From: Coprinellus micaceus
Taxonomy: Eukaryota > Basidiomycota > Agaricomycetes > Agaricales > Psathyrellaceae
NCBI GenBank assembly: GCA_951394405.1
Contig: OX596341.1
Location: forward strand, 3,126,650 to 3,190,649
Length of the DNA stretch: 64,000 bases
Reading direction: 5' to 3'
Under the pieces are notes generated by a model that worked only from the letters and a program-made list of their open reading frames with translations, was not told where the DNA came from and did not search any database. The position numbers and the translations under genes are program-made. Positions 2,394 through 64,000 of the stretch are shown here, in pieces (position 1 is the first letter of the stretch; the number at the start of each line of letters is the position of its first letter).

Positions 2394-2957
2394 TCAGCCG
2401 TGCAGTCGTCGAAGTGAGAGTGAGAAAGACTCACATTTCCTCTCCCACCCAGAGGACTTATCGCCCCTATGCTCGCGCTCAACCTCAACCTCATCCTCCT
2501 TCTTGTACGCCTTCTTATCCTCCTTCTTATCCTCCTCCTCCTCCTCGTTACGATAACGGCCGCTGTCGCTCTTGTAACCTTCTTCCTTCTCACCGCTCTC
2601 CTTCTTATGGCTCCGCTTCTTGCACTCATCCCTGTCCTTGTTATTCCAGTCGCCGTCCGACCTGGAGCCGCAGTCGATGACCTTGTGGTACGAAGTCGCC
2701 ATCTCGCTGGATTTGTGTTCCTGCTCGCCGTCGTACGCGTTGGATGTCGAGTGCTTCTTGTGTTTGAAATCGTAGTCCTCGTCGTAGTGCTTAACGTCCT
2801 TGGATGAGGCGTAACTACCGTCTTGGCCGTGGGACGAGCCATAGTGTCCGACGGAGTCCGATGAAGAGGAGTCGCTGCGAGGAAGGACGAGCATGGGGGA
2901 GGCAATGGCCATGGGGAGCGCGACAGCAAGCAGAGCGAGAGTTCCGGTGAGCTTCAT
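2394..2957 (-). CDS. Small secreted Lys/Glu-rich protein, two-cysteine family member 1
   Basis: 187 residues. The N-terminus MKLTGTLALLAVALPMAIA is a strong signal peptide, nearly the same as those of the genes at 20121, 23499, 29609 and 56702. The mature part is Ser/Asp/His-rich, has a Cys pair (IDC ... DEC) and then a long Lys/Glu/Asp-rich tail with no globular domain. No function is recognised; this looks like a disordered, secreted, highly charged protein. Near the 3' end a perfect GTGAGT donor (after codon bases AAA T), a CTGAC branch site and a TTTAG acceptor could remove the last ~15 codons and make a stop across the junction. The C-terminus is therefore uncertain. A TATAAATA box sits about 110 bp upstream. 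Confidence 0.8.
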   Translation of the reverse strand: MKLTGTLALLAVALPMAIASPMLVLPRSDSSSSDSVGHYGSSHGQDGSYASSKDVKHYDEDYDFKHKKHSTSNAYDGEQEHKSSEMATSYHKVIDCGSRSDGDWNNKDRDECKKRSHKKESGEKEEGYKSDSGRYRNEEEEEDKKEDKKAYKKEDEVEVEREHRGDKSSGWERKCESFSLSLRRLHG

Positions 2958-12100: not shown

Positions 12101-15100
12101 AAGGATGTCGAAGGCGAGGCAGATGGTGGAGGGTTGAAGGCGGCCTGGGTCGAGTCTACTAGCCATCAGCATTGATACGATAAGAAAGGACGTTAGGAAC
12201 GTACCAGGTACTGGAATACCATCTCCATCGATAACGATGACCGGAGTCTCCTCTCTCCCAGTCGCCCGTAGGTCTTCCAACAGCCGACTCCTGAGCTTCT
12301 TCCGCATCTTGGGAGGCATATACTCCTCCACGACGGGTTTACCCAGCGGCGTCGACTCCCGTTCATCCGAGAGATCGACGTCCATCCCATCTGGAGGATC
12401 TGGCGGCCGAAGGTCACGATCGTCCGATATTGGAATATGTGGGTGTCGATTCGATTGTATTCGCGAGGCGTCGTCTTCGTTATACGCATCTGTAGAAGAA
12501 AGCAAGCGTTAGCATCCGTCGAGACTATCAAAACCCAGTGAAACACGAAGAACGAGGAGAGAATGTCAAGGAACATGAAAGACGAATAGGAAGAGAGAGT
12601 CCAAGGACGACACCCCGATCCCCGGCCCCGTTACACCCCACATCCGTACTGATCAGTACGGATTTGGGATGTGACGGCGTCGGAGTTGGGGGTTGTCAGC
12701 CCGCCAGTATCGCCTCCCTCAATAAGAGGCAAAAATACGAAGACAGGAAACGAACATGGGCAAGAAAAGGTAAAGAAGGACGGCAGGGATTCGACCACGA
12801 TCACCGACCCCGTCGTGCCCTACATCCGCACTCATCAATCCGGATGTGGGGCACGAGGGTATCGGTGTCCGGGTAGTACAGTCCGTCCTAGCGCCGTCTC
12901 AACCCTGGCGCAAAAAGAAATAAGAACGAAAGAGAGAACAAGAGGACGAAGAGGAAGAACGACAACCCCCGAACACCGACCCCGTTACATCATATACTCG
13001 CACCAATATGTGCGGGTATGGGATGTGACGCTGTCGGCGTCAGGGGCGTGCATTCTCAAAGTGAATCCAGCCGGCGGGCTGGAGTCTCGAACGAAATGAC
13101 GACCTCAAGAGGGGGAACGTGAACGAAAGGTCGAGGAACGAAGGCGCCGAGGTCGGGGAATACGAAACGACTCGTTCGAAGACAGTAAGACCCCGAGATC
13201 GACTCGCACGAAAACGAGAGAAACACAAACGAAAGAAGGGAACGAGCAAGAGGTGAAACGAAAGCACGAACTAAGGAAAGAAAACGACACCAAAACAAAA
13301 AAGAAAAGCATACTCACCATCCACATCCACATCCACATCGCCATCCACACCCCCACTTCTCCCTCTCCCTCTCCCTCTCCCCCTTCCCTCCATATCCCCT
13401 TCCTCCTCCTCCTCACCCCCCACCCCATCCTCCCTCGCCCTCTCCTTCCCCTTCCCCTTCCCCCTCGCCCTCGCCCTCGCCCTCCCACTCCCAACAACCT
13501 CAACCCCACCCAACCCCCCACTAAACGGCACCCTCTCCCTCGCCTCAAACCCCCTCCTCTCCTTCAACCCCTCCAACCCTCCCAACCCCACGCCCTTCCT
13601 CCTCAACGAAAACGGCACAACACTCTCCCCCTCCTCGTCCGTCGTACCCTCACTCCCCCCATGCACCGTCATCCCATAGGGCATTGAACTCGAGCCTGCA
13701 TGGTACGAGCCTTCATGGTACGCCGACCCCGACCCCAACCCCGACCCCGACCCAGCCGGCACCGGCAAACTCCCATCCACAAACGCCGAAAACACGCTAA
13801 ACGCACAATCCTGCGCCCTCGCCCCGCACGCACACGTGCTGAACGTACTCCCCAGCGTATGCACGATATTCGCGATTTGGCGCCGGGCGTGGGCGATCTG
13901 CTCTTCGCTGTATTGTTGCGAAGCGCCAGCAGAGTAAGCAGGGGAGGAAGAGGAAGAGGAGAGGCGGGAACTAGGTGATCGGTAAGTCTGTCTTTTATCG
14001 TGGAGGGGAGAGAAGAGAATAAGAATAAGAAAGAAAGAAGAAGAGGGGAAGAAGACGAAAAGACACGAAACCGACGGAGAAAGAGAAACGCACCTAAACA
14101 TCCCAGGACACTCCACCATCGCCGGCAGAGTCCTCACGACGTTCCCGTCGTCCCACTCCCAAGCCAAAACTACCTCCTCGCCCTCTTTCAGGTCCCTCGT
14201 CGCGAAAATTCCAAACTTCAGAGTCTCGCTGTCTTCCTCCCCCTTCCCATCTCCTTCTCGGTCTCTACACCCCTTCGGGTTCCCTTTGGACGACGAAGAG
14301 CTCGTGGGGTAGTTAGACGACGTCGACGCTCGAGGAGACCCAGAGGATGTCGAACCCCCAGGGTGACAAAGTAACGGCCGAATAACAGCATTCGGCCTAC
14401 ACCCACTCCTCACAAACCTCGCCTCATTCCCCGCCATCCGCGCATCAAGCGCCCACCCCTCCTCCTCCTCCTCCTCTCCCTCTCCCTCATCCTCCGCCTC
14501 CTCCCCATCCCCACTCTCTCGTTCCCCACTATAAGACGCACCCCTCCTCCTCGGAACCGTAACCAACCGCACAAACGGCTTCGGCACCCCCATCCCCGCA
14601 TACCCATTCAGCCGGTCCCCCACATACACACTGCTCGGCGTGATCACGCTCGCATACCTCTCCACCAGCTCGCCCCTTCCCACCTCCCTCCTTGTATGCG
14701 CGCCGAACAAGGGCGGGCGGGAGTCCAGGGACGGCGTGGAGGGTGAGAGTGAGGGGTGTACGGCGGTGGATGGGGAGAGGAGGGATATTCGCAGATTGGA
14801 CTCTTTCCCTGGACTCGAATTTGTCGGGGGATACCCATGCTGAGCGGGCGTCGAAGTCGAAGTCGAGTTCGAGTTCGAGTTGGAAGGCGGGTCATGACGA
14901 GACCCCCCCGGGGCGGGACCCCCAAACGCCGACACACCCCTCCACATCGCAGCCTGCCTACACAACCTCCTCCGCGCCTCCTCACTCCCCACAACATCCT
15001 CCCGAATATGCACATAACTCCCCGCCCAGCTCTCCTCAATATCCACCATCTCCTCCGCGTTCTCTTTATCGCTCATCACCCCCGAGCCCGGGGGGTCTTT

Positions 15101-16234
15101 CGCAGCGGAAGTGGACGCGGAGGAGGAGGTATGGGGAGGGGGCCCGGTTGCTGTTATCGAGTTCGAGGTTGGGCGGGGATGGGAGTGGGATGTCGACGCG
15201 GTAGAGTTTGGGGCGTGAACCGCTGTCGAAGACGAAGTGGAGTTGGGAGGTGGAGGGACAGCCCCACTAGGCCTCCTCCTCTTCTTCCCCCCCGCATCCC
15301 CCGTCTTCCTCCGTTTATCCCCTCCTCCATGCGCAGGACTCGCCTTCCTCTTCCCCCTCCCTGTCCCCCCTCCCCCTCCTCCTCCTGCCCCCTCTCCCCC
15401 AACACCCACCCCATCCCTCGCCGCCTCCCTCTCCCTCAACCGCACCACCATCCTCTCCCTCGCGCCCAGCCAATCCACGTCCCCCTCCCTCTCCTCCCTG
15501 CACACCCAGCACTTCCACGGGTCGTTGGGACCGACGAAGGTCAGCCCGAAGCAGAAGCCGTGGCACCACCGGTCGCACTCGTCGCACGCCACCGCGATGC
15601 CGCCGTCGTCGCCCGTGTGCCCGCAGATGCAGCTGTAGCCCGCGGAGGCGTCGGAGGACGCCGAGGCTGTGGTTGTGGTTGTGGTAGTTTCCTTGGTGGC
15701 GTTGGGGTGAGTCGAGGTAAAGGAGGAGGGAGGGGGTATAGAGGACGGGTGCGGAGGGTGGGCGCCGTTGAGATTGGTGGTGGTGGAAGAGGTGGTGGAA
15801 GAGAAGGTTCGACCATTCGACTGAGCGATCGGCGTCGAAGGGGTACTCAGAGCTCCGTTACTCGCAGATCCATTCGGGGAGGTACTCATCGACACCGCCC
15901 TCCCCTTCCCCTTGCCTCTCCCCCCTCCCCCTGCCACTCCCACTCCTGCAGTTGACCCCCCCGCCACTCGGTCCTCCCACTCGACGTTCTGCGCCTGCTT
16001 CCCCCTCCGCCCCCCGGTGACGATGTTCGGGATGGAGGGGCTCGGGAGGAGGATAGATTGTAAAGAAGTGGGTGTATGCGTGTTCGAGGAGGTCCCGGGC
16101 GTCGGGGGGTCGATCGTCATCGTATATTCGTCCTGTTGTCGTCGAGCAAATGAAGTGGATATGGCTGTGGTTGTGGATGTGGATATGGCGGGCAAGGAAG
16201 CGTGCTGCTGTGACCCATCGTCGTCGTCGTCCAT
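9109..16234 (-). CDS. PHD-finger and SET-domain chromatin protein (Set3-like)
   Basis: Four exons on the minus strand: 14094-16234, 13318-13991, 12205-12489, 9109-12158, with phases consistent throughout, giving about 2049 residues. The start is the ATG of MDDDDDG at 16234. A PHD finger lies near residues 200-250 (CIC..., CDECDRWCHGFC, WKCWVC). A SET domain spans roughly 510-695 (AHTRREVGRGELVERY; NEARFVRSGCRPNA; GIFATRDLKEGEEVVLAWEW). This order and the RSGCRPN variant of the NHxCxPN motif fit Set3, scaffold of the Set3 histone deacetylase complex, whose SET domain is usually thought catalytically inactive. A MPPKMRKK motif follows. The last exon encodes ~1000 residues of Pro/Ser/Lys-rich disordered sequence. 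Introns are 102, 828 and 46 nt; the 828-nt one holds three hairpins. It could be two genes, but the phase match argues for one. Confidence 0.8.
12608..13050. repeat. Three tandem ~90-nt hairpin elements inside the long Set3-like intron
   Basis: Units are at 12608-12697, 12793-12882 and 12961-13050, separated by purine-rich spacers. Each has an outer ACCGACCCCGT-like arm and a long inner stem: unit 1 is CCGTTACA/TGTGACGG plus a palindrome CCGTACTGATCAGTACGG, unit 2 is CGTGCCCTACATCCG/CGGATGTGGGGCACG, and unit 3 pairs over about 21 positions with one mismatch. Stem sequences differ between units but pairing is kept. They lie in intron 12490-13317 of the Set3-like gene. Function unknown. Confidence 0.75.
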
Positions 16235-17334
16235 CCGCCGGCTCAATCTCGATTCTTAGCTCGGCGTCGTTGTGGCTTTCCTAATGCTTTGTTTGGTGTT
16301 GGAATCCTGTGTCCCGACGACGACGGTAAATCGAAAGCTCTCCGACACCCAGGGGTGAGTGCGCTCGTACCGTACGCCCGATACCAGTTCAGCTTCGTAT
16401 ATGCGACCCCAAACCACGCAATTGGAATCGTTATCGCCCCGTCCTCCTCCGTCCTTGCACTTGATTCCCCCAGCCTTGGTTCTGTGAGAGGTGTAACGTG
16501 TATCCTCTCCCTTTCAATATCAATGTATATCTCTGTCTGTCTCCACGCGACGGTCCGTGCGCTTGAATGTGCGTCGAAAGAAAGGAGGACGGAAAGAAGG
16601 TTGGGAGGGGGGAGAGGAGAAATGAGGAACACGGAGGAGAGAATGTGAAAGTTGAATCCTAACCCCTACGCCCCCGAGTCTCACACCGCCCGCCCAGGGG
16701 TTGTTTGGCGACAGCTTTCGGGCTAAGCACCGGAACGATGCCGTCTCCGCCGTCCGACGGTTCGGCATTTCCCGAGCCGGAGGGCGGGCGTTCGAGTCGG
16801 GGAGGAAGCGAGTCGTTTCGTTCGTTGCTGTTCTGTTGGGTGCGGGGCATAGTAGGGGAAACCCAGCGGTGAGGTCGTGGTGATCGCCTGGGTCTGAAAT
16901 ATTCATGCTTGGTGCGTCTGGGAGTCCGACTCTAGGGGTCTTCAACGCAGGTGCAAACCTCACTGGGTTTGGTCAGACCCCGGTGCGACTCTCAGGTTCG
17001 TCCTCTCGGCGAACCGTCGACACACCCGAGTAACGCCCATCTCGTACACACAGTACGTTACCCGTAATGATAGAAAAGCCACACACATCAATTAGAATAG
17101 ACGCGATTTTAGAATCCTCTCGAGACTTTGTAAACCAGGATCATACTTCCCAACTAGACATTGTGCACCGCAGAACCTACCCCCCTTCACACAGAACCTC
17201 GCTCGGCCCTACATGTATACGACCGCTGAATTGAGTCTGGCGCATAAAACGAGCCAGGCCATTATCTCGGATACGCGGCTTATATCGATGCCTGTGGATT
17301 ATACGCCACGGGCGCTTAGCCTCCCCATCCTCTT
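16235..17334. other. 5' flank of the Set3-like gene, nothing else recognised
   Basis: No gene with a supporting domain or splice structure. The promoter and leader of the minus-strand Set3-like gene must be here. No clear TATA box. Confidence 0.45.
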
Positions 17335-19402: not shown

Positions 19403-19474
19403 TGACCATCGCAGGGGTCGAACCTGCAATCTCCTGATTCGTAGTCAGACGCGATGCCATTTCGCCAGACGGCC
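19403..19474 (-). tRNA. tRNA-Arg (anticodon ACG), second copy
   Basis: The 72-nt sequence is identical to 2015-2086, including the anticodon loop CTACGAA and a B box GGTTCGACC. A T6 run on the minus strand at 19390-19395 is the likely Pol III terminator. It sits inside duplication unit A, 3' of the secreted-protein gene at 20121, at a point where unit B has no tRNA. Confidence 0.93.
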
Positions 19475-20120: not shown

Positions 20121-21101
20121 TTACATCACGTTTACCGGCGCGAGGAGGTTGGAGGTAAGGCCGTTGGAACCACCCAAAATTAGGCCGGAGAGGGGTCCCC
20201 GAGCCGATGCACCGTCAACGGCCGAGTTGTCAGCGAGTTCTTCGGCCGCACCTTCCGCCTCGGCGCTCCCATCGAAGGCACTCCCATCGAAGGCGCTCAA
20301 CCCACCCTTGCCGCCCTTCCAGCCCGTGCCCTTGCCCTTGCCCTTCCTGTACCCCTCCTCGCGCAACTTTTCTGACTCCTTCTTGAGCTCGAACGCCTTG
20401 GCCTTCGCTGCAATCTTCGTTTTATCCTTCGTCTCCATATCAGTCTCGTAGTCGGTCTTCGACTTGTCCTTCGTCTTTTCCTTCATCCTCGTCTCGGTTT
20501 TCGTCTTGCACGCCTTCTTCCCCCAGAACCCCCAGCCCTTTTGATAGGGGCACTCCTCCTTCTTGTACATCTCGGTCTCGGTCTCCTTGTCATACAGCGT
20601 TTTTCCAGAGTTCTTCACCGAGTCGTCGGTGGAGTACTTCTGGGCGTACTTGAAGCTCAGCGAATCGCCGGCGACGTACTTGTCCTTCTCGACAAATTCT
20701 TCTTCAGGCTTATAAGAGCCTTTGCGGTCGTAGGAGTCCTTGTTGTCGTAGGAGTCCTTGCGATCGTGGAAGTCCTTGTCGTCGAAGGAGTCTTTGCGAT
20801 CTTGGAAGTCTTTGTTGTCGTAGGAGTCCTTGCGATCTTTATTGTCGTAGGAATCCTTGCGATCTTTGTTGTCGTAGGAGTCCTTGCGGTCGTGGAAGTC
20901 CTTGTCGTCGTAGGAGTCCTTGCGGTCGTGGAAGTCCTTGTTGTCGTAGGAGCCCTTGCCGCCGTAGGAGCCCTTGCCGCCGTAGGAGTCCTTGTTGTCG
21001 TAGGTAGAGACGGAAGATTCGCGAGCATGAATGCCGGTGGGGGCGGCGATGACCACGGGGAGAGCGATGGCGAGCAAAGCGAAGACTCCGGTGAAATGCA
21101 T
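20121..21101 (-). CDS. Secreted Asp/Lys-repeat protein, two-cysteine family member 2
   Basis: 326 residues, single exon. The signal peptide MHFTGVFALLAIALPVVIA is followed by a tandem array of near-identical short repeats built from DNKDSYD, DRKDSYD and DKDFHD (about residues 33-130). Then comes a block shared with the 23499 gene (GSY.PEE..EK.K...GDS.S..YA), the conserved EECPY...C pair, and a Lys/Thr/Asp-rich helix-prone stretch. The C-terminal segment (SARGPLSGLILGGSNG) is also shared with 23499. No catalytic domain is visible; it is probably disordered and extracellular. It is the paralog in unit A of the segmental duplication. Its TATA box is 117 bp upstream. Confidence 0.82.
   Translation of the reverse strand: MHFTGVFALLAIALPVVIAAPTGIHARESSVSTYDNKDSYGGKGSYGGKGSYDNKDFHDRKDSYDDKDFHDRKDSYDNKDRKDSYDNKDRKDSYDNKDFQDRKDSFDDKDFHDRKDSYDNKDSYDRKGSYKPEEEFVEKDKYVAGDSLSFKYAQKYSTDDSVKNSGKTLYDKETETEMYKKEECPYQKGWGFWGKKACKTKTETRMKEKTKDKSKTDYETDMETKDKTKIAAKAKAFELKKESEKLREEGYRKGKGKGTGWKGGKGGLSAFDGSAFDGSAEAEGAAEELADNSAVDGASARGPLSGLILGGSNGLTSNLLAPVNVM
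20711..21002 (-). repeat. Intragenic tandem repeat coding for DNKD/DRKDSY units
   Basis: Degenerate 15-33 nt coding repeats (YDNKDRKDS, FHDRKDSYDD and variants), about a dozen units, absent from the paralog at 23499. Such an array is prone to length change. Confidence 0.8.
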
Positions 21102-23498: not shown

Positions 23499-24332
23499 CT
23501 ATGTCATGCCTACCGCCGGGATGATTCTAGAGGGAAGGCCATTGGGATCAGCCAGAAGGAGGGAGTTTGAGAGTGGTCCTTGAGCCGACGTACCGTCGAT
23601 GGAAGAGTCGGACGAGTCGTCGACGAAGTCTTCGGTCGCATCTTCTGCGTCCGCGTCCATGGTGCCCTTCTTCCCCTTGCCCTTGGCCTCCTTCCCTCCC
23701 TTCCCGTATTTCCCCTTCCCCTTCCGTTCCTTCCCGTCGCCCTTGCCCTCCTCCTTGCCCTCCTTATCCTTATCCTTATCCTTATCCTTCCCCTCCCCGT
23801 CCTTCCCCTTCTTGTGCTCCTCGCCCCTAGTCTTCTGAACCTCGGCCTTCTGAACCTCAAACTCCTTACTCTTCCCCGACGCTTCCTCCACATCCGTCGC
23901 CTCCGAATCACTCCCCGACTCCTTATCAGCCTCCGACTTCGTCACGTCCTTCACACTCTCCGAGGTACTCTTCTTGCACCCCTTCCCCTTCTTCCCGTTG
24001 CCTTTCCCCCTTTTCCCGCCCTTACCCCCTTCATAGTACGGGCACTCCTCCGTCGAAGTCGTCTCCGCTTCATAGTCCTCGGAATTTAAGCTGTGTTCAG
24101 CGTTATAAGTTGACGCAGCGTTGTGCTGGGTGTGGGCGTAGTCGTAGCTCTGCGAGTCGCCGTAGACGAGCTTTTCCTTCTCGATTACGTCTTCTTTAGG
24201 CTCGTAGGATCCTTTGTGGCCGTAGGTGGGGGTGGTAGTTACGGAGGGTTCACGAGCGTGAATGCCACTGGGAGCGGCGATGACCGCGGGGAGAGCGATG
24301 GCGAGAAGAGCGAAGACACCGGTGAAATGCAT
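23499..24332 (-). CDS. Secreted Lys/Gly/Glu-rich protein, two-cysteine family member 3
   Basis: 277 residues, single exon. The signal peptide MHFTGVFALLAIALPAVIA differs by two residues from the 20121 paralog. The mature part keeps KGSYEPKEDVIEKEKLVYGD, the EECPY...GKGC pair and the C-terminal TSAQGPLSNS segment. It lacks the DNKD repeat array and instead has KGKDGEGKDKDKDKD and GKGK runs. No enzymatic domain; probably a disordered secreted polycation. The long open frame on the opposite strand (23580-24089) is a composition shadow of the Lys/Gly codons. Confidence 0.82.
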   Translation of the reverse strand: MHFTGVFALLAIALPAVIAAPSGIHAREPSVTTTPTYGHKGSYEPKEDVIEKEKLVYGDSQSYDYAHTQHNAASTYNAEHSLNSEDYEAETTSTEECPYYEGGKGGKRGKGNGKKGKGCKKSTSESVKDVTKSEADKESGSDSEATDVEEASGKSKEFEVQKAEVQKTRGEEHKKGKDGEGKDKDKDKDKEGKEEGKGDGKERKGKGKYGKGGKEAKGKGKKGTMDADAEDATEDFVDDSSDSSIDGTSAQGPLSNSLLLADPNGLPSRIIPAVGMT

Positions 24333-29608: not shown

Positions 29609-30811
29609 ATGCAGCTCACGGGTATCTTCGCTCTGCTCGCCATCGCCCTCCCCGCCGCCTTGGCCCACCCCGCCATTCTCCGCCGTGACGATGCCCCCAC
29701 CGACTCCTCCTCCACCTCATCGTCCGGTCCCGAACACCCGGAGATGGAGCACCACGACTTCCACCCCGGTTCTATCTCTGGACACGGCAAGGCCTACGAC
29801 CACACATACTCCTCCCACAAGCTCGACTCCACCTGGGCCGGGTCGGAGGGGAAGAAGTACGAGCAGTCCCAGGCCGCGTACAAGTCCGTGAACAAGTGCG
29901 AAGGGCATACCGGGCAGGGCGAGAAGTGCGATACCTGGAACGCCAACGAGGCGAGTGGGGAGGCGCATGCCGAGAGCCAGAGCGTTGCGGGCGAGGTGCA
30001 TGAGAGTACACAGAAGGATGACGTCGATTGGGAGGTCAAAGCGTTCGAGAAGGAGAAGGAGAAGAAGGAGGACGAGAAAAAGGAAGACGAGAAAAAGGAG
30101 AACGAGAAAAAGGAGAACGAGAAGGAGGATGAGAAGAAGGACGGCGTGAAGAAGGAGGATGAGAAGAAGGAGGATAAGAAGAAGGAGGGTGAGCGGAAGA
30201 CCTGGACCTTTTGGAGCCGCCAGGAGGATGGTATCACTGAGGTCGTCTCGGACACCGAAGGTTAGCCCTGTCCCAGTTCGTCGTATTGGTTCATACTCTG
30301 ACGAATATTATTCTCCCCTTCTCGATCCCATCTCCACCGCTCCCCATCCCGGACGCTAACACAGGTCCCTTCACCGAGGGCGATGATACCCCGGACGCCG
30401 ACGTGTCCACGGACGACTCTGGTGACCTCTCCCGCCGTGGCGATTGGGGCGGTAGCGGTATGACCTTTGGAGGTATGAGCAAGTCTTTCGGGACGAGCAA
30501 GTCTGCTGGTATCAACAAGTCTGGAGACGTGAGCAAGTCTAGCGGGATAAACAGCTCTGGCGACGTGAGCAAGGCTAGCACCGACTCTACCTCCGACGTT
30601 TCTTCGATTTTCCAGGGCTTCGATACTTCTTCTCTCCTTGAGGGTGGCCTTGTGGATGACGGTGATAGTAAGTCCCCCATTCCCTCCGCTTGATCGAGTT
30701 GGAATGCATGTTAATTGTGGCTCGAACTTCATAGCTGCCGCCGGTGTTCAGAGGACCGGCGAGTTCGGTCTGGGTGGTTCTGTTCTCAAGGGGTTTGGCC
30801 TCATGGGCTGA
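29609..30811 (+). CDS. Secreted Lys/Glu-repeat protein, two-cysteine family member 4
   Basis: Three exons: 29609-30260, 30365-30667, 30735-30811 (TGA), 343 residues. The signal peptide MQLTGIFALLAIALPAALA matches the minus-strand family members. A His/Tyr/Ser-rich section is followed by the NKCEGHTGQGEKC two-cysteine motif. Then come about 60 residues of KKEDEKK/KKENEKK repeats, predicted to form a charged helix. Exon 2 adds a Ser/Asp section with the repeats MSKSFGTSKSAGINKSGDVS, and exon 3 a hydrophobic Gly-rich C-terminus. Unlike the other members, it has two introns near the 3' end. No enzymatic domain; probably extracellular and disordered. Confidence 0.82.
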
Positions 30812-31630: not shown

Positions 31631-32975
31631 ATGAAGTTCCTCGGGATTCTCTCTACCCTGGCAGCCGTGCTCCCCGCTGTGCTCGCCCGTCCCGGGAGGC
31701 TTGTTGGACGTCAAGATGCCACTGCAACCGACGATGCTCCTACCTACAACACGGATAGCGGTACGTCGTTCCTCGTCTTCATCTCCGGCCTGTATCTGAC
31801 ACACTGTCCCCTCCTTCGCCGATCTCACACATCCTCGATTTCACACCTAACCTTCCATCATCGCTCTCTCGTCGATCCCCTACCTACCCACTGGCTCTTC
31901 ATCAGACATGCGTCTGCTCAACCTCGCCCTCGTTCTTGAGCATGTCATGCAAGGAATGTACGATCAGTCTTTCGCGAACTACACCGCCGAGGACTGGACC
32001 GCAGCTGGATACTCTCTCGCTACACGAGACCGGTACCTCCAGATGCAGGCGTACGAGAATACGCATGCCCAGATCTTGACGGATGTCGTCGTGAACGGTG
32101 GTGGGGACATCATCGGGGCTTGTTCGTACAAGTTGTGAGTGGATCTTCTCTTCACTAGCCTGGGATGAGACGCCGATGAGTTCTCTTAACTTTAAGTGCC
32201 TCGACGAATGTGGATGAGTTCGTCGCCGTTAGCGAGATCGTCGAGACCATGGCTGTCGATACCTACAATGGTATGCTGGAGTATATCGAGGATAAGGTTC
32301 GTTTCTACCCCGGTCTTTCCGATGGAGCCTGACTTTGGCGTACCTGCCTACAGGATACGCTTACCTTGATCTCCTCCATCATGAACACCAAGGCTCGCCA
32401 TGCCGCCTGGATCGGCTCGATTAGGGGAGTCAACCCATGGAGTACCGCATACGAGGTACGTGCTTCGCCCAAGATCCAACTGTCCCTCAGATAACAACTC
32501 AATGCTACGACGCATTTAGATCCCACTTTCCATCAACGGCTCCTTCAATATCGTCGGGACCCACATCATCCGCGGAACCTGCCCTAAAACCAACAGCCTC
32601 ATAACCATGCTCCCCATTGGCGTCTACGACTACGCCAACATCAACTTCGGCTCCACCCCTACTCCCGGGGGCTCCGTCTCCATGACCCTCCAATACCTTC
32701 CTTACGATCTCCCCGACGTCCTTGTCGCTACGTTCCTCACTGGAACCGATACCTACTACGCGCCTGTCGTCGAGTCCGTCTTGGGCGACGGGACTACGGG
32801 CTTGAGTGTGACGGTTCCTTGGGAGGTGGCTGGGATGGGCGCGGTGTATGTCATGCTTGTGGAGCCTGATGCAGATGGGAATGTGAGTGGGGATGTGAAT
32901 ACGGAGACTATCTATGCTGGTCCCGCGATGGCGATGTTCCCTTTCGATGCAGAGGGTCATAGCCTGTGGGCTTAG
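31631..32975 (+). CDS. Secreted ferritin-like (Rds1-type) protein, paralog A
   Basis: Five exons: 31631-31760, 31906-32134, 32197-32296, 32354-32455, 32520-32975 (TAG), 338 residues. The signal peptide starts MKFLGILSTLAAVLPAVLA; only about 20 residues of linker follow before the ferritin-like domain. That domain begins DMRLLNLALVLEHVMQ and contains YENTHAQIL and the Cys-Ser-Tyr-Lys end of helix 4. It fits the Rds1/Ferritin_2 (PF13668) family of fungal secreted stress-response proteins. The candidate metal ligands, Glu of LEH and Glu/His of ExxH, are present here. The C-terminal half is beta-rich and ends YAGPAMAMFPFDAEG. The intron phases (1, 2, 0, 0) are identical in paralogs B and C. Biochemical role unknown. 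Confidence 0.87.
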
Positions 32976-42267: not shown

Positions 42268-44122
42268 ATGCATCTCAATAACATCCTCTCAACTCTTGTC
42301 ATCCTCCTCCCTCTCCCTCTCACTCTCTCCTCACCCCTGACCGCCCGAAACGGCGACAGCTCTCTTACCCCCGAGGATACGAACGAAGCGCTCACCTCCG
42401 AAGGCGCCCTCAGCCCCGACAACACTGCCGACATCCTCGGGGAACTCGACATCTCTGGCCTGGCATTAGGTCGTGCGGGTGAAATACCGAACCCCGCTGG
42501 GGGTTACGGTGGTTATGGTGCTGGGAGGAATGCGTGGGGATATCATGGGTATTCGTATGAGAGCAATCCCTGGGCGGCTGCAGCGAGTCCTGCTGTGACT
42601 CCGGAGGTCGCGCCCAAGACAGAGTGGTGGGAGGGTGCCGCTCCTGACTCGAATGCTCAGGTCAGCGCCACCTCTGCTGCTGCTCCACCTCCGAGACCGT
42701 ACGATAGCCCAACTGTTGCAGGTACGGCCTACCTTCCTCGTTCGAATTGATTAACATCTAAGATCAACCTCTTGATCAGGAGTCTACTCTCCCGCCAAAC
42801 CGACGGGTTGGTCAGCCCCGTCGGTTGCCCCCGCCGGCTCGAGGCCCTCGCGTTCGACCTCTAGCTGGACTCCCCCGTCTAACTCCTACACTGGTACGTA
42901 CTTCTTCCGATTACGGAACGCATGGTTGAATTTGTTTAACCCCCCGATAGATATCCAACTGCTCAACCTCGCCCTCGACCTTCAACACCTCCTCCAGAGC
43001 TTTTACGCCCACCTCGCCTTCAAGTATGATGTTCAAGCGTTTATTGATGTAGGATACCCAGCTTGGGTCCGAAATCGGTTCCTCCAGATTCAGGTCTTCG
43101 CGGATGTGCACGTCGACGCCTTGGTGAGCGTGATCCTCCAAGCCGGAGGGCAGGCCGTGTCGGGTGGATGCGGGTATAACTTGTGAGTGAATCGGATGCG
43201 AATTCGGTAACGTTCGATCGGCTGAAAATGAGATGGACTCGATAGTGATGATAAGACGATCCTCGAGCTCACGGCTATGGCCGAGCTTCTGGAGACGGTC
43301 GCAGTTTCGACGTATGCGAGTATCCTCCCTCTCCTCGAGAGCAAGGTATGTTCGCCTTCGCTTCGCACTGGCGAACTGGGGCTCTTCTTTATGGTAGCCG
43401 CATGCTCAGCAGTAAACTTCGCTAGGTCTACATCAAGATTATTGGCCAGCTCATGTCTACCCACGCTCGCGAGACTGCTTGGATCAACGCCGCGGTGAGG
43501 AGTGGCAGCCCGTGGAACACCGCGTTTGAGGTACGACTTACTTCCATTCCCATATCCTCGATGTCGTACTCATATTCATGTCTGTTCATTCTCCAAATAG
43601 ACCTCCCTATCCATCGACCTTGTTCTCAGCCTCATCAGCTCTTTCGCCATTCCCGGAACATGTCCCGCCTCGAACTCCAGACTCCTCCCTCTCCCAATCT
43701 CCGCATCCGCCTCAGCGCAGCTCACCCTGCCTGGGGCCCTCACTGCTGGGCTCAGCGCCTCCGTATCTGTCTCGCTGTTTAACCCTCTCATCTCTGCATC
43801 CATCGATTTGGGCAACCTCTACGTGGCATTCATGGTCGGGGCGGACATCTACTACCAGCCTCTGCTCAACGTCGGTTGCGCTCGGAGCAGGTCGCAGTGC
43901 GCTGGAAGTGTGGTGGTTCCGTTGGAGTTGTCTGCGACGGGGTATGTGTTTGTGACGGTTGTTCAAGCACAGGTTGGGGTGGATATCGCCAGTGTGAGTA
44001 TCGATGCGCAGGTGGTTGTTGCGGGTCCGGCGCTGATTGAGTTCCGGTTTGATTCAACTGGGGCAAGCGTGCAGGTGGGAGCGGAGGTGGACGCTTCGCT
44101 GGGTCTTCAGGTCGTGGCGTAA
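42268..44122 (+). CDS. Secreted ferritin-like (Rds1-type) protein, paralog B
   Basis: Six exons: 42268-42721, 42780-42893, 42951-43182, 43246-43345, 43426-43530, 43601-44122 (TAA), 508 residues. The start is the ATG giving MHLNNILSTLVILLPLPLTL; an upstream in-frame ATG (42166) would precede a second hydrophobic stretch. The linker of about 170 residues is Gly/Tyr/Ala/Pro-rich (GGYGGYGAGRNAWGYHGYSY) and spans two exons joined by phase-1 introns. The ferritin-like domain starts DIQLLNLALDLQHLL. The positions that are Glu in paralog A are Gln (LQH) and Ala (ADVH) here, so the metal-ligand pattern looks lost. The C-terminal beta-rich half is kept (VAGPALIEFRFDSTG). Confidence 0.86.
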
Positions 44123-56701: not shown

Positions 56702-59700
56702 ATGAAGCTCACTGGTGTCTTCTCCTTCCTCGCCATCGTTCTCCCTATCATCCTCACCTCTCCCGCGCTCGCCTCTCCCACTCAAGCTCGCCGTGACGAC
56801 TCTTCCGACGGGTCTGGCTCTGGGGACTACGATTCTGGCAACTCTGGCTCTTCGGACTCCTCCAACAACGGCTACGATTCCAACGGTTCTGGATCCTCCG
56901 GCGATTCGGGCTCGTACGACAACAATAGTGGCAATAACTACGACAACGGCTCCGGCGCGCAGACCGCTGGATATGGAGGGTACGGCGGAGGCTACGATAA
57001 CTCCAATTCCGCGGGATACGGATACTCGACCACCACCTCGACGTACTACGCTTACCAGACCGGGAACGCTGGGAACGGCGGGAATGGGTATGATAACAAT
57101 GGCGGCGCGTACGGCGACTATGCTGAAGGTGCTGTCGACGAGAACTCCTCGAACGGCTATGGTGGAGATTCTGGGTCTTCTGGGTACGGCGGTGATTCTA
57201 GTTCTGGGTACTCCGGGGATGGGAACAGCGGTTCTGGAGGCTATGGTGGCGGGGATGGGGGGTATGGGGGTCAGGGCAACGGAAACGGTGGTGGATCCTG
57301 GAGCACGTCCACCACTCACTATCCCACTGCTACCTCTACTCGTACTCGCACTTCCACTCGTACCTCGACTCGGTACTCGACGATTACCTCAACCTCCACC
57401 CGTACTCGCGATCATCACGATACGGTGACGCGTACTCGCACCTCTACGCGTAACAACTACTTCACTTCGACGATCTACCCGACTGCTACTGGAGGCCCTG
57501 GAGGTTCTAGCGCGGCGGCTGCTTCGATCGCTAGGTGCGAGTTCAACCCGAATACCGAGGAGGTCGTTTGTGAGGCGGGGTCTGCGGCGTCGGGCGGCGC
57601 TGGAGATGGGAACGGCAATGGGAACCACGATAATCTCCAGAATTGGAGCGGGAATCGGGGAGGGAACAATGGTACGTATACTCGTTCACATAGGCGAAGG
57701 ACTTTGACTGATTTTCTCTTCGATTCGCTATAGGCAACAACGGGTATGGCGGGAACAACTCGAACGGCTGGAACGGGAACAGGGGAGGGAATAACGGTAC
57801 GCACCTCTTCGACATGTCGAATCCGAGCATCCTTACTGACTCAACTTCGTCCCGAATCCAGGAGGAAACAACGGAAATGGGAACTACGGAGGAGGGAACG
57901 GTACGTATCTCACCTTTTCTTTCCTTTCGAATTCGGGAGCTCATTCAACGTTCAACAGGGAACTATGGAGGGAACGGCGGGAACGGGAACTATGGCGGGA
58001 ACGGCGGCTATGGCGGTAATCACGGTGCGTCGCTTCTATCTCCCCCCTACGCTCGGATGTCGTGCTGATGAGGAGGGCGTCTATTAGGCAACGAGGGTGG
58101 TTACGGCCAAAACCGGGGAAACGGCGGCTATGGTCAGAACGGCAATGGGGGAGGGAACCGTGGTACGTTTCCTCATCGTACCTTCCATCGCCACTTCGAA
58201 GCTGACGTGGAATCTTTGAATATTAGGCGATAACGGCGGTTACGGCCACAACGGCAACTCTGAAGGCGATTACGGTTAGTCTTCCGATTTTTCAGCTCAC
58301 TCGGGATCCGTGCTCACGAATACCTTGACGCGTATTAGACAACAACGGCGATGATCGCGACCACGGGGGAAATGGAGGATACGGTCAGAATGGCAATAAC
58401 GGTGGCAATCACGGTACGTCTCTTCGTCGTACCTTCCCTCTGTCGCTCCTCACACGAACAACTATATCTTCTTCATAGGTAATAACGGTGATTACGGTCA
58501 GAATGGTAACAACGGAGGGAACAACGGTATGCCCTAGCGCCCTCTTCGTCCTCGGAGCTCGTACTAACTGGCGTTCATACCGATCAGGGAATAACAGGAA
58601 CGGAAACGGCGGTGCTGCCGCTTCCTCCTCGTCTTCTTCCAGCGCTGCTTCCGGGAACGGGAACAACGGGAACAACGGGAACTTCGAAAACAACCGGAAT
58701 GGCCAGGGCGTTTCTGCATCCTCTTCCTCCTCATCCGCCGCCGCCGCTGGTGGCTCGAACAACGGGGGTAATCGTCAGAACGGTAACTACCGGGGGAACA
58801 ACGGTACACATCTTTTCATCTCCGTACCTTACGCGTCGAGCCATCGCTGACGGGTCTCGCATCGTGCAGGGGACAACGACTATAATCAAGGTGGTAACGA
58901 CCGAGGGGACTACGGTGCGTACTTTCTTGAGGTCCCGACGATTTTGTCTCATACTAATGTGCCCCTCTACATCGACTAGACGACAACAACGGACGAAATC
59001 GCAATGGGAACGGCGGAGCCTCGTCCTCCTCGTCCTCTTCGAGCGCCGCCGCTGGTGGATCTGGGAACGGAAACTTTGGGAACAACGGCAATGATCGCGG
59101 CGTTTCCGCTTCGTCATCCTCCTCCTCCTCTGCTGCTGGTTCGAACAACGGTGGGAATGGCCAGAACGGCAACTACGGTGCGTTACTCGCTATACTCTCT
59201 GCATCGTGACATCGCTGACTGGAATACTTCGTATCTCAGGTAACAATGGCGAATACAACCATGACGGCAACAATGGTGGCGGCTATGGTTAGTATTTCGT
59301 TTGCTCCTACTTTCACAATACGATTCTAATTGTCGTTCGTGCTCACTAGGGGATGACGGCGGTAATGGGTACGGAAATGACCGGAACGGCGACTACGGAG
59401 ACAACGACAGTACGCTTCACCCTTACAACTTGATTTCTTGATTTCGGGCACTCTCTGACGCGAGACCTTCTCAGGGAACAACGGCGGGTATGACCAGAAT
59501 GGAAACTACGGAGACAACTACGGTGCGTCACCTCTCGGTACGCGATGCGCTCGACTTCGTATTGACGAACCCCTTCGTCGATTAGGAAACTACGGAAACG
59601 GGAACGGCGTCTCCTGGTCCTACGGGAACGCAAACGGAAACAGCGACTGGGGTGCGTCCAAACTTTTCTTTCCTTCTCCCACCTTCGCTGACTGATCTTC

Positions 59701-61617
59701 GCCTCTATTCTCTGTAGATATCCGTCTCCTCAACCTCGCCCTCACCGTTTCCCACATGTCCCAGGCCTTCTACAACCAGTCGATGTGCGCATACGATCAG
59801 CACGCCTTCCGAGACCGTGGGTACCCCGAGTGGGTCCGCAACCGCTACGAGCAGATCAAGCAGCATGAGGACGACCATACCTGGTACCTCTACGACGCGA
59901 TCACTTCTGCTGGTGGCAACGCTATTCGCGAGTGCGAGTACAAGTTGTGAGTGTCTTATTATCGTTCTCAGAGAATGAGGCACACCTAACGAGCTTCGAT
60001 TTCGCTAGCCCCGAAGTCAACAACGCCGACGATTTCGTTGAACTCAGCGAAGCCATCGAGACCCTTTCTGCCTCGGCGTTCAACGCCATCGTCAAGTACC
60101 TGCAGAACGATGTACGTATCTCATTCCAGAGCTTCTTAGTACCCCGCTGAGTCAGTTTTCTAGAACTACCGCACTGTTGTGGCATCGATCTTGGGCACCC
60201 AGTCCCGCCACGCAGCCTGGATCAATTCTGCCGTCCGTATGCAAAACCCCTGGAACACTGCCTTCGAGGTACGCTCCTACCTATTTCCTATCCGCGTTGG
60301 CTCAGTTCTAATTCCAATGTTCTCTCCCCGTTTGCCTAGACTCCTATCTCGCTCGAAATGATCTTCAACCTCGTCGGAGATTTCATCATTGGTGGCTCCT
60401 GCCCCACCTCCAATAACAAGGCCCTCATGCTCCCCCGAGGCCTTGTCGACTTCGCTTCCCTTGAGCTCCCCGAACGTATCAAGGCCGGCCACAAAGTTCA
60501 GATCCAGTTCGACAACTCCGATTCGTACGGCAACAACAACGACCTCTACGCGGCGTTCCTCGTCGGTAGCGCCACCTACTACGAGTCTGTCTGGCAGGAG
60601 GATGGGTGCTTCTTTGTCAAGGTTCCCAGGGAGTTGAAGGCGAAGGGCGCGGTGTACATCGTCATCCTGCGGAACAACGGCAACAACTTCGGCGCCTCTT
60701 CCAGCTCTTCGTCATCGGCTTCTGCTTCTGGGCTCGGAAGTGCCTCTAGCTCCTCTTCATCCGCCGCTGCAGCTGGAAACGGGGCCTCTGCTTCGTCGTC
60801 CTCTTCGAGCGCCGCGAGTAACGGAAACGGAAGGTCTTCGAACTATCGTCAGAACGGGAATGGCGGAAACGGCAACTACGGGAACAACGACAATTGGGGC
60901 TCTAACTCGAACCGCTGGAACAACGGGAACTCTGGCGATTCTGGCTCTGGGAACGGGGGCTGGAACAACGGGAACAACAGGAACAACGGTCAGGGTGACT
61001 CGGACTGGGACTCGAACCAGTACGGCGATGGTAACAGCGACAACTATGGCTCCGGCGACTCTGGCCGTTCGTCGTCGTATCGCTCTGGATCCGGAAACGG
61101 CGACGACGGCTACGACTCCCGAAACTCGGGCGATTCCTCCTCCTATGGCTCCGACTCGTCGTACGGCAATGGCAACAATGGTGGAGGCTGGGGTCAGAAC
61201 TCGGATAACGGTGACAGTGGTTACGGGTCGAACGATGGCTGGGGCAGTGGAAACGGCGATCAGGGCTTGGACAACGGGAACCGCGGAAGTGGGAGCTGGA
61301 GCAAGCGGGGCAATAGCGATGACTCTGGCGACTACGGAAACGGGAACAGAGGAAACGGTGATTCGAACGACTACTCACGGAACGGTTCCAACGGTCAGGA
61401 CGACAACGAAAATGGGAACCGTGGCAGTGGGAGTGGGTACAGCAGTAACGGCAACTACGACTCGGGTAGCAACGATGGCGGTGAGGTAGATTGCGACCTT
61501 GGCAATATCTCCATCTCGTACCAGAACATCATCGCTGGGCCCGCTCTCATCATGTTCCCCTTCAACTCGGGGGGCGAGCCCGTCGCTGAGGGTCAGGATG
61601 TGTGGAAGTGGTACTAA
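56702..61617 (+). CDS. Giant secreted ferritin-like (Rds1-type) protein, paralog C, with Gly/Asn/Tyr mini-exon array
   Basis: Nineteen exons: 56702-57671, 57734-57796, 57862-57900, 57959-58024, 58088-58162, 58227-58274, 58339-58413, 58479-58526, 58588-58803, 58870-58914, 58980-59177, 59240-59287, 59350-59409, 59475-59522, 59586-59651, 59718-59946, 60009-60111, 60164-60268, 60340-61617; 3780 nt, 1259 residues. The signal peptide starts MKLTGVFSFLAIVLPIIL. Exon 1 encodes Ser/Gly/Asn/Tyr repeats and a Thr/Arg tract. Exons 2-15 encode Gly/Asn/Tyr repeats with some Ser/Ala runs (residues 324-688). Exons 16-18 encode the ferritin-like domain (DIRLLNLALTVSHMSQAFYN; QIKQHEDDHTWYL). Exon 19 has the beta-rich half, interrupted by ~270 disordered residues before NIIAGPALIMFPFNSGG. 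The Glu of LEH is Ser here. It is probably extracellular; wall or matrix function is a guess. Confidence 0.85.
57734..59651 (+). repeat. Array of 14 symmetric phase-1 mini-exons (exons 2-15 of paralog C)
   Basis: Lengths are 63, 39, 66, 75, 48, 75, 48, 216, 45, 198, 48, 60, 48 and 66 nt, all multiples of 3. Every flanking intron interrupts a codon after its first base, almost always a Gly codon (G|GN). Encoded peptides are variants of GNNGGYGQNGNNGG. Two longer ones carry Ala/Ser runs (ASSSSSSSAA). The pattern indicates repeated exon duplication. Confidence 0.85.
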
Positions 61618-63830: not shown

Positions 63831-64000
63831 TTAGGGTTAGGGTTAGGGTTAGGGTTAGGGTTAGGGTTAGGGTTAGGGTTAGGGTTAGGGTTAGGGTTAG
63901 GGTTAGGGTTAGGGTTAGGGTTAGGGTTAGGGTTAGGGTTAGGGTTAGGGTTAGGGTTAGGGTTAGGGTTAGGGTTAGGGTTAGGGTTAGGGTTAGGGTT
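63831..64000 (+). repeat. Telomere, (TTAGGG)n
   Basis: About 28 perfect TTAGGG units run to the last base, with the G-rich strand 5' to 3' toward the end, as expected for a right chromosome end. The boundary with unique DNA (CCCCGTAATC) is sharp, with no degenerate repeats. Confidence 0.98.

Follow-up and report, generated by a model that had tools for sequence, protein, structure and literature searches.

Can a fungal gene with fourteen consecutive mini-exons, any of which could be lost without a frameshift, use them to produce a family of proteins, or is this architecture the trace of how the gene was lengthened? The question is raised by a gene near the end of a Coprinellus micaceus chromosome, at the right-hand side of the 64,000-nucleotide stretch of DNA that we analysed (the window). 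The coding region (56702..61617; this and all other features are on the + strand unless stated otherwise) consists of 19 exons and 18 introns, and the joined exons form a single open frame of 1259 residues with one terminal stop. Exon 1 (56702..57671) is intronless and encodes a hydrophobic leader, which by eye reads as a probable signal peptide, followed by Gly/Ser/Asn/Tyr- and Thr/Arg-rich low-complexity sequence. Intron 1 (57672..57733, phase 1) separates it from the array, exons 2-15 with introns 2-14 (57734..59651), which is made up of symmetric phase-1 mini-exons. Intron 15 (59652..59717, phase 1) precedes exons 16-18 and introns 16-17 (59718..60268), the part encoding a ferritin-like four-helix domain, which matches the Ferritin_2 profile (PF13668) with 114.2 bits against a cut-off of 24.7 (E 6.8e-33). 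Exon 19 (60340..61617) encodes a beta-domain, an intronless Gly/Asn/Ser low-complexity stretch and a conserved C-terminal strand. The gene ends 2.2 kb before an array of 28.3 telomere-type TTAGGG repeats (63831..64000) that closes the contig. Elsewhere, on the - strand, the window carries two predicted tRNA-Arg (ACG) genes 17 kb apart (2015-2086 and 19403-19474) and a 991-codon frame (13271-16246) with a PHD-finger match of 23.8 bits, below the Pfam cut-off of 24.

The first-pass annotation described the exons of the array as multiples of three and the introns bounding them as phase 1, and both statements held throughout, for 14/14 exons (39-216 nt) and 15/15 introns, respectively. Most of the exons are short: exon 2 (57734-57796, 63 nt), exon 3 (57862-57900, 39 nt), exon 4 (57959-58024, 66 nt), exon 5 (58088-58162, 75 nt), exon 6 (58227-58274, 48 nt), exon 7 (58339-58413, 75 nt), exon 8 (58479-58526, 48 nt, a 16-codon repeat exon), exon 10 (58870-58914, 45 nt), exon 12 (59240-59287, 48 nt), exon 13 (59350-59409, 60 nt), exon 14 (59475-59522, 48 nt) and exon 15 (59586-59651, 66 nt). 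Exons 9 (58588-58803, 216 nt) and 11 (58980-59177, 198 nt) are longer, each with a Ser/Ala insert. The split codon was said to be nearly always Gly; it is Gly in 11 of the 15 introns, Asp in three (introns 6, 10 and 15) and Arg in one (intron 13). All 15 bounding introns are 58-66 nt long, begin with GT and end with AG, and each has a match to the branch-site consensus YTNAY no more than 45 nt from its end. The run is open in another frame too, and it is the flanking exons that fix phase 1. The junctions listed here are those of predicted splicing.

We then asked how unusual such a run is. A coordinate-free scan for GT-branch-YAG introns of 48-85 nt linked by symmetric open exons of 24-250 nt was applied to both strands of 30 segments (272,505 bp). 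These came from the window, cut at 8 kb, from five ferritin-like loci and from the opening 10 kb of 17 contigs, so that the sample is biased to chromosome ends. The scan recovered exactly the 14 array exons and their introns, although its rules for donor, branch and length were set after the array introns had been read, so that it is not fully independent of them. The longest run in the other 29 of the 30 segments was 2, and in 20 shuffles of the array gene it never exceeded 2. Genome-wide, a pattern of intron, short exon and next donor gave 70 matches versus 28 for the reversed pattern, and the array gene was the only place with more than one match within 5 kb (three matches); these three are all that the pattern catches of the array, so weaker arrays elsewhere could escape it. 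A stricter pattern gave two matches, both in the array gene, and one match for its control. Four repeat units in a row, used as a query, matched the array gene alone, at two places. At E 0.001 the array DNA matched nothing else across the 50.3 Mb genome, by a search that passes over very common words, and on that result a mobile, introner-like nature of the array introns is unsupported. The architecture is, thus, real and rare, with one instance in the genome by these scans.

Most of the array exons share a motif of 16 codons, approximately N-N-G-G-Y-G-Q-N-G-N-N-G-G-N-N-G, and the array is richer in Gly (33%) than the low-complexity parts of exon 1 (24%) and exon 19 (24%), as well as in Asn (28% versus 11% and 20%, respectively). 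To see if the motif is in register with the splice sites, we took the 13 exons that are 45 nt or longer and scored the final 43 nt of each with a leave-one-out profile, against a background of 527 in-frame windows from the low complexity of exons 1 and 19. In 11 of the 13 exons the motif stands in a fixed register to the donor and outscores at least 99.8% of the 527 windows; exons 11 and 15 are off register, and exon 3, at 39 nt, is too short for the test. A 48-nt exon and a 63-nt intron together make a unit of 111 nt. The exact 48-nt length is found in 4 of the 14 exons, and in a family detected by a repeat finder (D2) 6 of 11 spacings were 98-113 nt and the remainder larger; near 111 nt, Tandem Repeats Finder reported no period. 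Exons 19 and 11 share a Ser/Ala module (60780-60815 and 59014-59049, respectively) with 86% identity over 36 nt, so pieces may have moved between the intronless and the intron-rich parts of the gene.

Similarity among the exons points to duplication. Exons 9 and 11 are plainly copies of each other (z 10.0), and exons 5 and 7 are also alike (z 4.5). By lag, mean z was 2.85 at lag 2 (12 pairs, the 9/11 pair included), versus 1.40 at lag 1 and 0.9-1.6 at lags 3-8; an even-odd test gave p 0.014 for introns and, not significantly, p 0.079 for exons. The first-pass annotation had suggested self-alignment of the introns as a check on whether exon and intron were copied together, and two pairs did align. 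Introns 5 and 7, anchored at the donor, are identical at 17 of 22 positions (p 0.0005 versus column shuffles), which extends the similarity of exons 5 and 7 across the donor, from exon 5 with intron 5 (58088..58226) to exon 7 with intron 7 (58339..58478). The outermost two introns, 1 and 15, anchored at the acceptor, are identical at 20 of 27 positions, in the 3' half of intron 1, a value reached in 0 of 4000 shuffles. Most of the array introns no longer align, likely because the copies are old; basidiomycete introns are reported, in the part of that study available to us, to diverge too quickly to align even between close species (PMC3584928). As a group, the array introns had a mean z of 1.00, versus 0.61 between them and others and 0.65 among others, the controls being 16 introns, three from the array gene and 13 from its paralogs A, B and C. 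The donor-side test over all intron pairs gave p 0.07. Similarity between exons showed a weak link with that of the introns downstream of them (Mantel p 0.053) and none with that of the introns upstream. From these comparisons it is likely that the array grew through duplication of exons and that some intron sequence was copied as well.

We next considered the age of the copies. The 11 in-register exons agree at 7.0 of 14 residues, versus 3.4 (sd 0.17) in codon shuffles. Their pN is 0.30, versus 0.56 in the shuffles, and their pS is 0.79, versus 0.80 expected at full saturation. With exons 11 and 15 included, agreement among the 13 exons falls to 5.7 of 14 residues, and 69 of 78 pairs have a pN lower than their pS; as codon shuffles show this ordering too, it is the extent of the drop in pN alone that argues for selection. 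Since silent sites are saturated between copies, no recent growth of the array is seen, and convergence on one motif is not fully separable from descent. The proposal that the gene could lengthen by exon duplication is, thus, supported as old history and not as continuing growth, and recent slippage of the array as a whole is rejected by the saturated silent sites. A 9-nt unit repeated three times within exon 9 (58656-58682) looks fresh. We consider it likely, on the substitution pattern, that the copies are old and that selection has maintained their amino-acid pattern.

The ferritin-like family suggests where this growth took place. The genome has at least eight ferritin-like loci, six of which we modelled, four in full with the array gene included (C6 and C4 were left out). 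Paralog models were placed by eye, those of D and E extending only from the leader exon through the intron to the first domain exon. A phase-1 intron just before the domain, the counterpart of intron 15, is present in 6/6 of the modelled members including the array gene, and the number of symmetric phase-1 exons is 0, 0, 0, 1, 1 and 14. Paralog A (31631..32975) has the same pre-domain intron and no mini-exon; paralog B (42268..44122) has one symmetric phase-1 mini-exon of 114 nt (42780-42893), and the single mini-exon of the other member is 84 nt long. Paralogs A and B lie on the strand of the array gene within the last 33 kb of the chromosome. Comparison by eye gave no support to the mini-exons of paralogs B and C being copies of the array repeat. 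A shared phase-1 intron accompanied by 0, 1 or 14 symmetric exons indicates that the array is growth at an old phase-1 intron.

The domain connects the gene to relatives outside this genome. A domain profile search with a 263-residue piece (residues 689-951 of the spliced protein) found 20 relatives among 7996 scored candidates. The best match, P0001, is a partial Coprinellus micaceus protein, 90% identical over 99% of the query, whose database model begins inside the domain. Like the array protein, fungal Ferritin_2/Rds1-like proteins combine the PF13668 domain with a conserved C-terminal strand and Gly/Asn- or Ser-rich insertions, the latter seen in Agrocybe (P0007, P0008) and Ephemerocybe (P0004) relatives. 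They differ from it in the spacer: no Gly/Asn repeat region like that of the array precedes the domain in any of the 16 relatives compared (of 20 found), several of these models being without an N-terminus. A whole-protein search scored on residues 722-984 (most of the domain and some low complexity) found nothing, and the distinctive part of exon 1, used as a query, gave no match either.

The reading that we regard as probable is that the 14 frame-neutral phase-1 exons form a Gly/Asn spacer before the ferritin-like domain of a secreted protein, that they arose by old duplication of exon together with intron, and that they are constitutively spliced. An ancestral phase-1 intron would have allowed the insertion of a 48-nt exon (some 111 nt including its intron) and its repeated copying, with the frame unharmed. 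Silent sites and introns would then have diverged to saturation under selection that held the amino-acid pattern. Recognition is likely intron by intron, by intron definition; skipping of exons would be tolerated arithmetically, yet seldom used, and in 14 of 15 cases a retained intron would cut the product short. The array would, thus, be spliced into one long spacer of a secreted protein that is likely a scaffold or an adhesive at the cell surface or in the matrix.

Alternatively, introns may have invaded, independently of each other, a long intronless Gly/Asn-rich region at G|G sites, in phase 1 within Gly codons. Basidiomycete genes can gain introns quickly, with a slight preference for G|G that is clearer in phase 1, as far as the accessible part of the same study goes (PMC3584928). 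In addition, 68% of the GG sites of the array are in phase 1, and the array introns are mostly dissimilar. Independent gain, however, requires all 14 new introns to have fallen in phase 1 (0.0047) and 13 of them to have all fallen in the array (3.6e-5), although exons 1 and 19 hold 134 of the 252 phase-1 GG sites; both values assume an equal chance per site, and the regions were chosen after seeing the gene. Nor does it predict the register of the motif to the donor or the likeness of introns 5/7 and 1/15. We, therefore, regard independent gain as unlikely.

The possibility from which the first-pass annotation started is a cassette for splice diversity, in which regulated skipping of mini-exons yields secreted proteins with spacers of varied length, as in the micro-exon genes (MEGs) of schistosomes. 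Its arithmetic is correct: exons can be lost without a frameshift, as anticipated, since skipping any one of the short, symmetric exons retains the full frame (14/14). MEGs, too, have small exons, mostly multiples of three, and are described in the sections of that report available to us as giving spliced isoforms (PMC10526429), and a junction count in Schizophyllum commune lists 1,527 exon skips in coding regions, versus 7,851 alternative 5'/3' sites (PMC5034255). Against this, the available part of the S. commune study puts exon skipping at 1% of called coding-region events, with intron retention the commonest (PMC5034255). The array introns are uniformly short (58-66 nt) and carry branch-site matches, whereas skipping one exon would require an intron of 162-343 nt. 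Retention of a single intron, for its part, brings an early stop at residue 343 to 862 in 14/15 cases, intron 14 alone reading through. Moreover, duplication by itself accounts for frame neutrality, and symmetry that comes from copying is not evidence of regulated skipping. We saw no sign in the sequence of the large isoform family that had been envisaged: isoform diversity from the array is unlikely, a cassette of this kind is a rather improbable explanation of it, and we predict constitutive inclusion of the exons.

A more specific form of this idea, which we hold improbable but not fanciful, is a fungal micro-exon system in which skipping of subsets (16,384 combinations) tunes the spacer of a cell-surface scaffold by stage or surface, an ancestral phase-1 intron of this subtelomeric gene for a secreted protein serving as the slot for frame-neutral repeat exons; if true, the fungus would have arrived independently at what schistosomes do with their micro-exon genes. 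Finally, the run may be an artefact of the gene model, a decayed or non-coding repeat in which introns were over-read, as the partial database model of the C. micaceus protein might suggest, but this is highly implausible given a donor, branch-site match and acceptor in 15/15 introns, 19 exons in one frame, recovery of the run by the coordinate-free scan, and the low pN of the in-register exons against their codon shuffles while silent sites are saturated.

What the protein does may be approached through its domain. P0001 is predicted to fold into a four-helix bundle with a beta-domain after it (mean pLDDT 83.9), and by this prediction on a close relative the array protein is also expected to have the four-helix ferritin-like fold. 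The closest PDB match of the P0001 model is RvY_06210, presumably a tardigrade protein, and the sequence agrees with this match. The low complexity of exon 19 maps to the loop before the last strand. The ligands of a ferritin-like di-iron site, which we take to be E / ExxH / E / ExxH, are not all present: in both the array protein and P0001, the Glu of helix 1 is replaced by Ser and that of helix 4 by Gln, so that two positions of this pattern are changed. Glu stands at all four ligand positions in 7 of 13 aligned rows, and the other 6 have a different residue at one or more of them, so changed sites are no special feature of the array gene; in paralog A, the helix-4 ligand is Lys. Judged from these residues, the ferritin-like core is likely structural, bearing long flexible and possibly glycosylated spacers, and our best guess for the protein is a matrix or adhesion scaffold.

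A leader resembling MxLTGxFALLAIALP opens several predicted secreted proteins. With a consensus of our own making as the query, a search gave seven genome matches at E no higher than 1 (best 1.1e-5), five of them in the window: 2883-2957 (-), 21021-21101 (-), 24252-24332 (-), 29609-29689 (+) and at 56702 (+), the start of the array gene. The other two, C10:18620 and C12:2615927, are 19 kb and 76 kb from contig ends. By eye, the leader of the array gene is closer to these than to the leaders of the ferritin-like paralogs, a hint that the gene may be chimeric. A predicted secreted protein of the window (20121-21101, -), of 326 residues, has DSYDNKDFHDRK-type repeats in tandem units of 18/36 nt.

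We compared the array gene with systems of similar layout, each as described in the available portion of its source. The leucine-rich repeat (LRR) genes of Tetrahymena have tandem 90-bp phase-2 exons, attributed to successive exon duplication and unequal crossing over, and the youngest of the 90-bp-exon genes are enriched in subtelomeric and pericentromeric regions (PMC6564038). Like the array, they have tandem symmetric exons and one intron phase throughout (PMC6564038), and by this analogy the array gene likely arose in the same way. The array differs in exon length (39-216 nt versus 90 bp), phase (1 versus 2) and product (Gly/Asn-rich versus LRR), as well as in scale: Tetrahymena has thousands of such genes, whereas here one gene was found, with old copies, in a fungal host. 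Schistosome MEGs resemble the array gene in their secreted products (predicted, in the case of the array) and in their many short exons mostly divisible by three (PMC10526429). MEG exons are 3-81 bp, a range that includes 12 of the 14 array exons and excludes exons 9 and 11, and MEG introns, in contrast to those of the array, extend from 100 to almost 5000 bp; MEGs are 35 genes with reported isoforms, and here there is one array (PMC10526429). The bicycle genes of aphids also combine many small internal exons of one shared phase with putative secreted proteins; in contrast to the array, the phase is 2, the family is large and the protein motifs are different (PMC9168663). The fungal SP7-like effectors of Rhizophagus are secreted, with hydrophilic imperfect repeats and a conserved intron before them; their sequence differs from that of the array gene, this is the one conserved intron, and the accessible text describes neither one exon per repeat nor a ferritin-like domain (PMC11333574).

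The array has exons divisible by three, one phase, and one repeat per exon in register (11/13), which are features of a tandem symmetric-exon array, and lacks the full defining feature set of Tetrahymena LRR, MEG or bicycle genes. Among the matches listed in a search of the open-licence literature by title and start of abstract, none described such an array in a fungus. The gene shows in a fungus, with tiny introns, the one-exon-one-repeat layout of ciliate LRR genes, itself reminiscent of animal micro-exon genes. Its sister genes, with 0 or 1 exon at the same intron, provide a before-and-after series for the growth of a low-complexity spacer by exon copying, and the intronless low-complexity stretches within the same protein are a built-in control. 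The array also offers a natural setting in which to ask if fungal splicing by intron definition handles 14 mini-exons in a row accurately.
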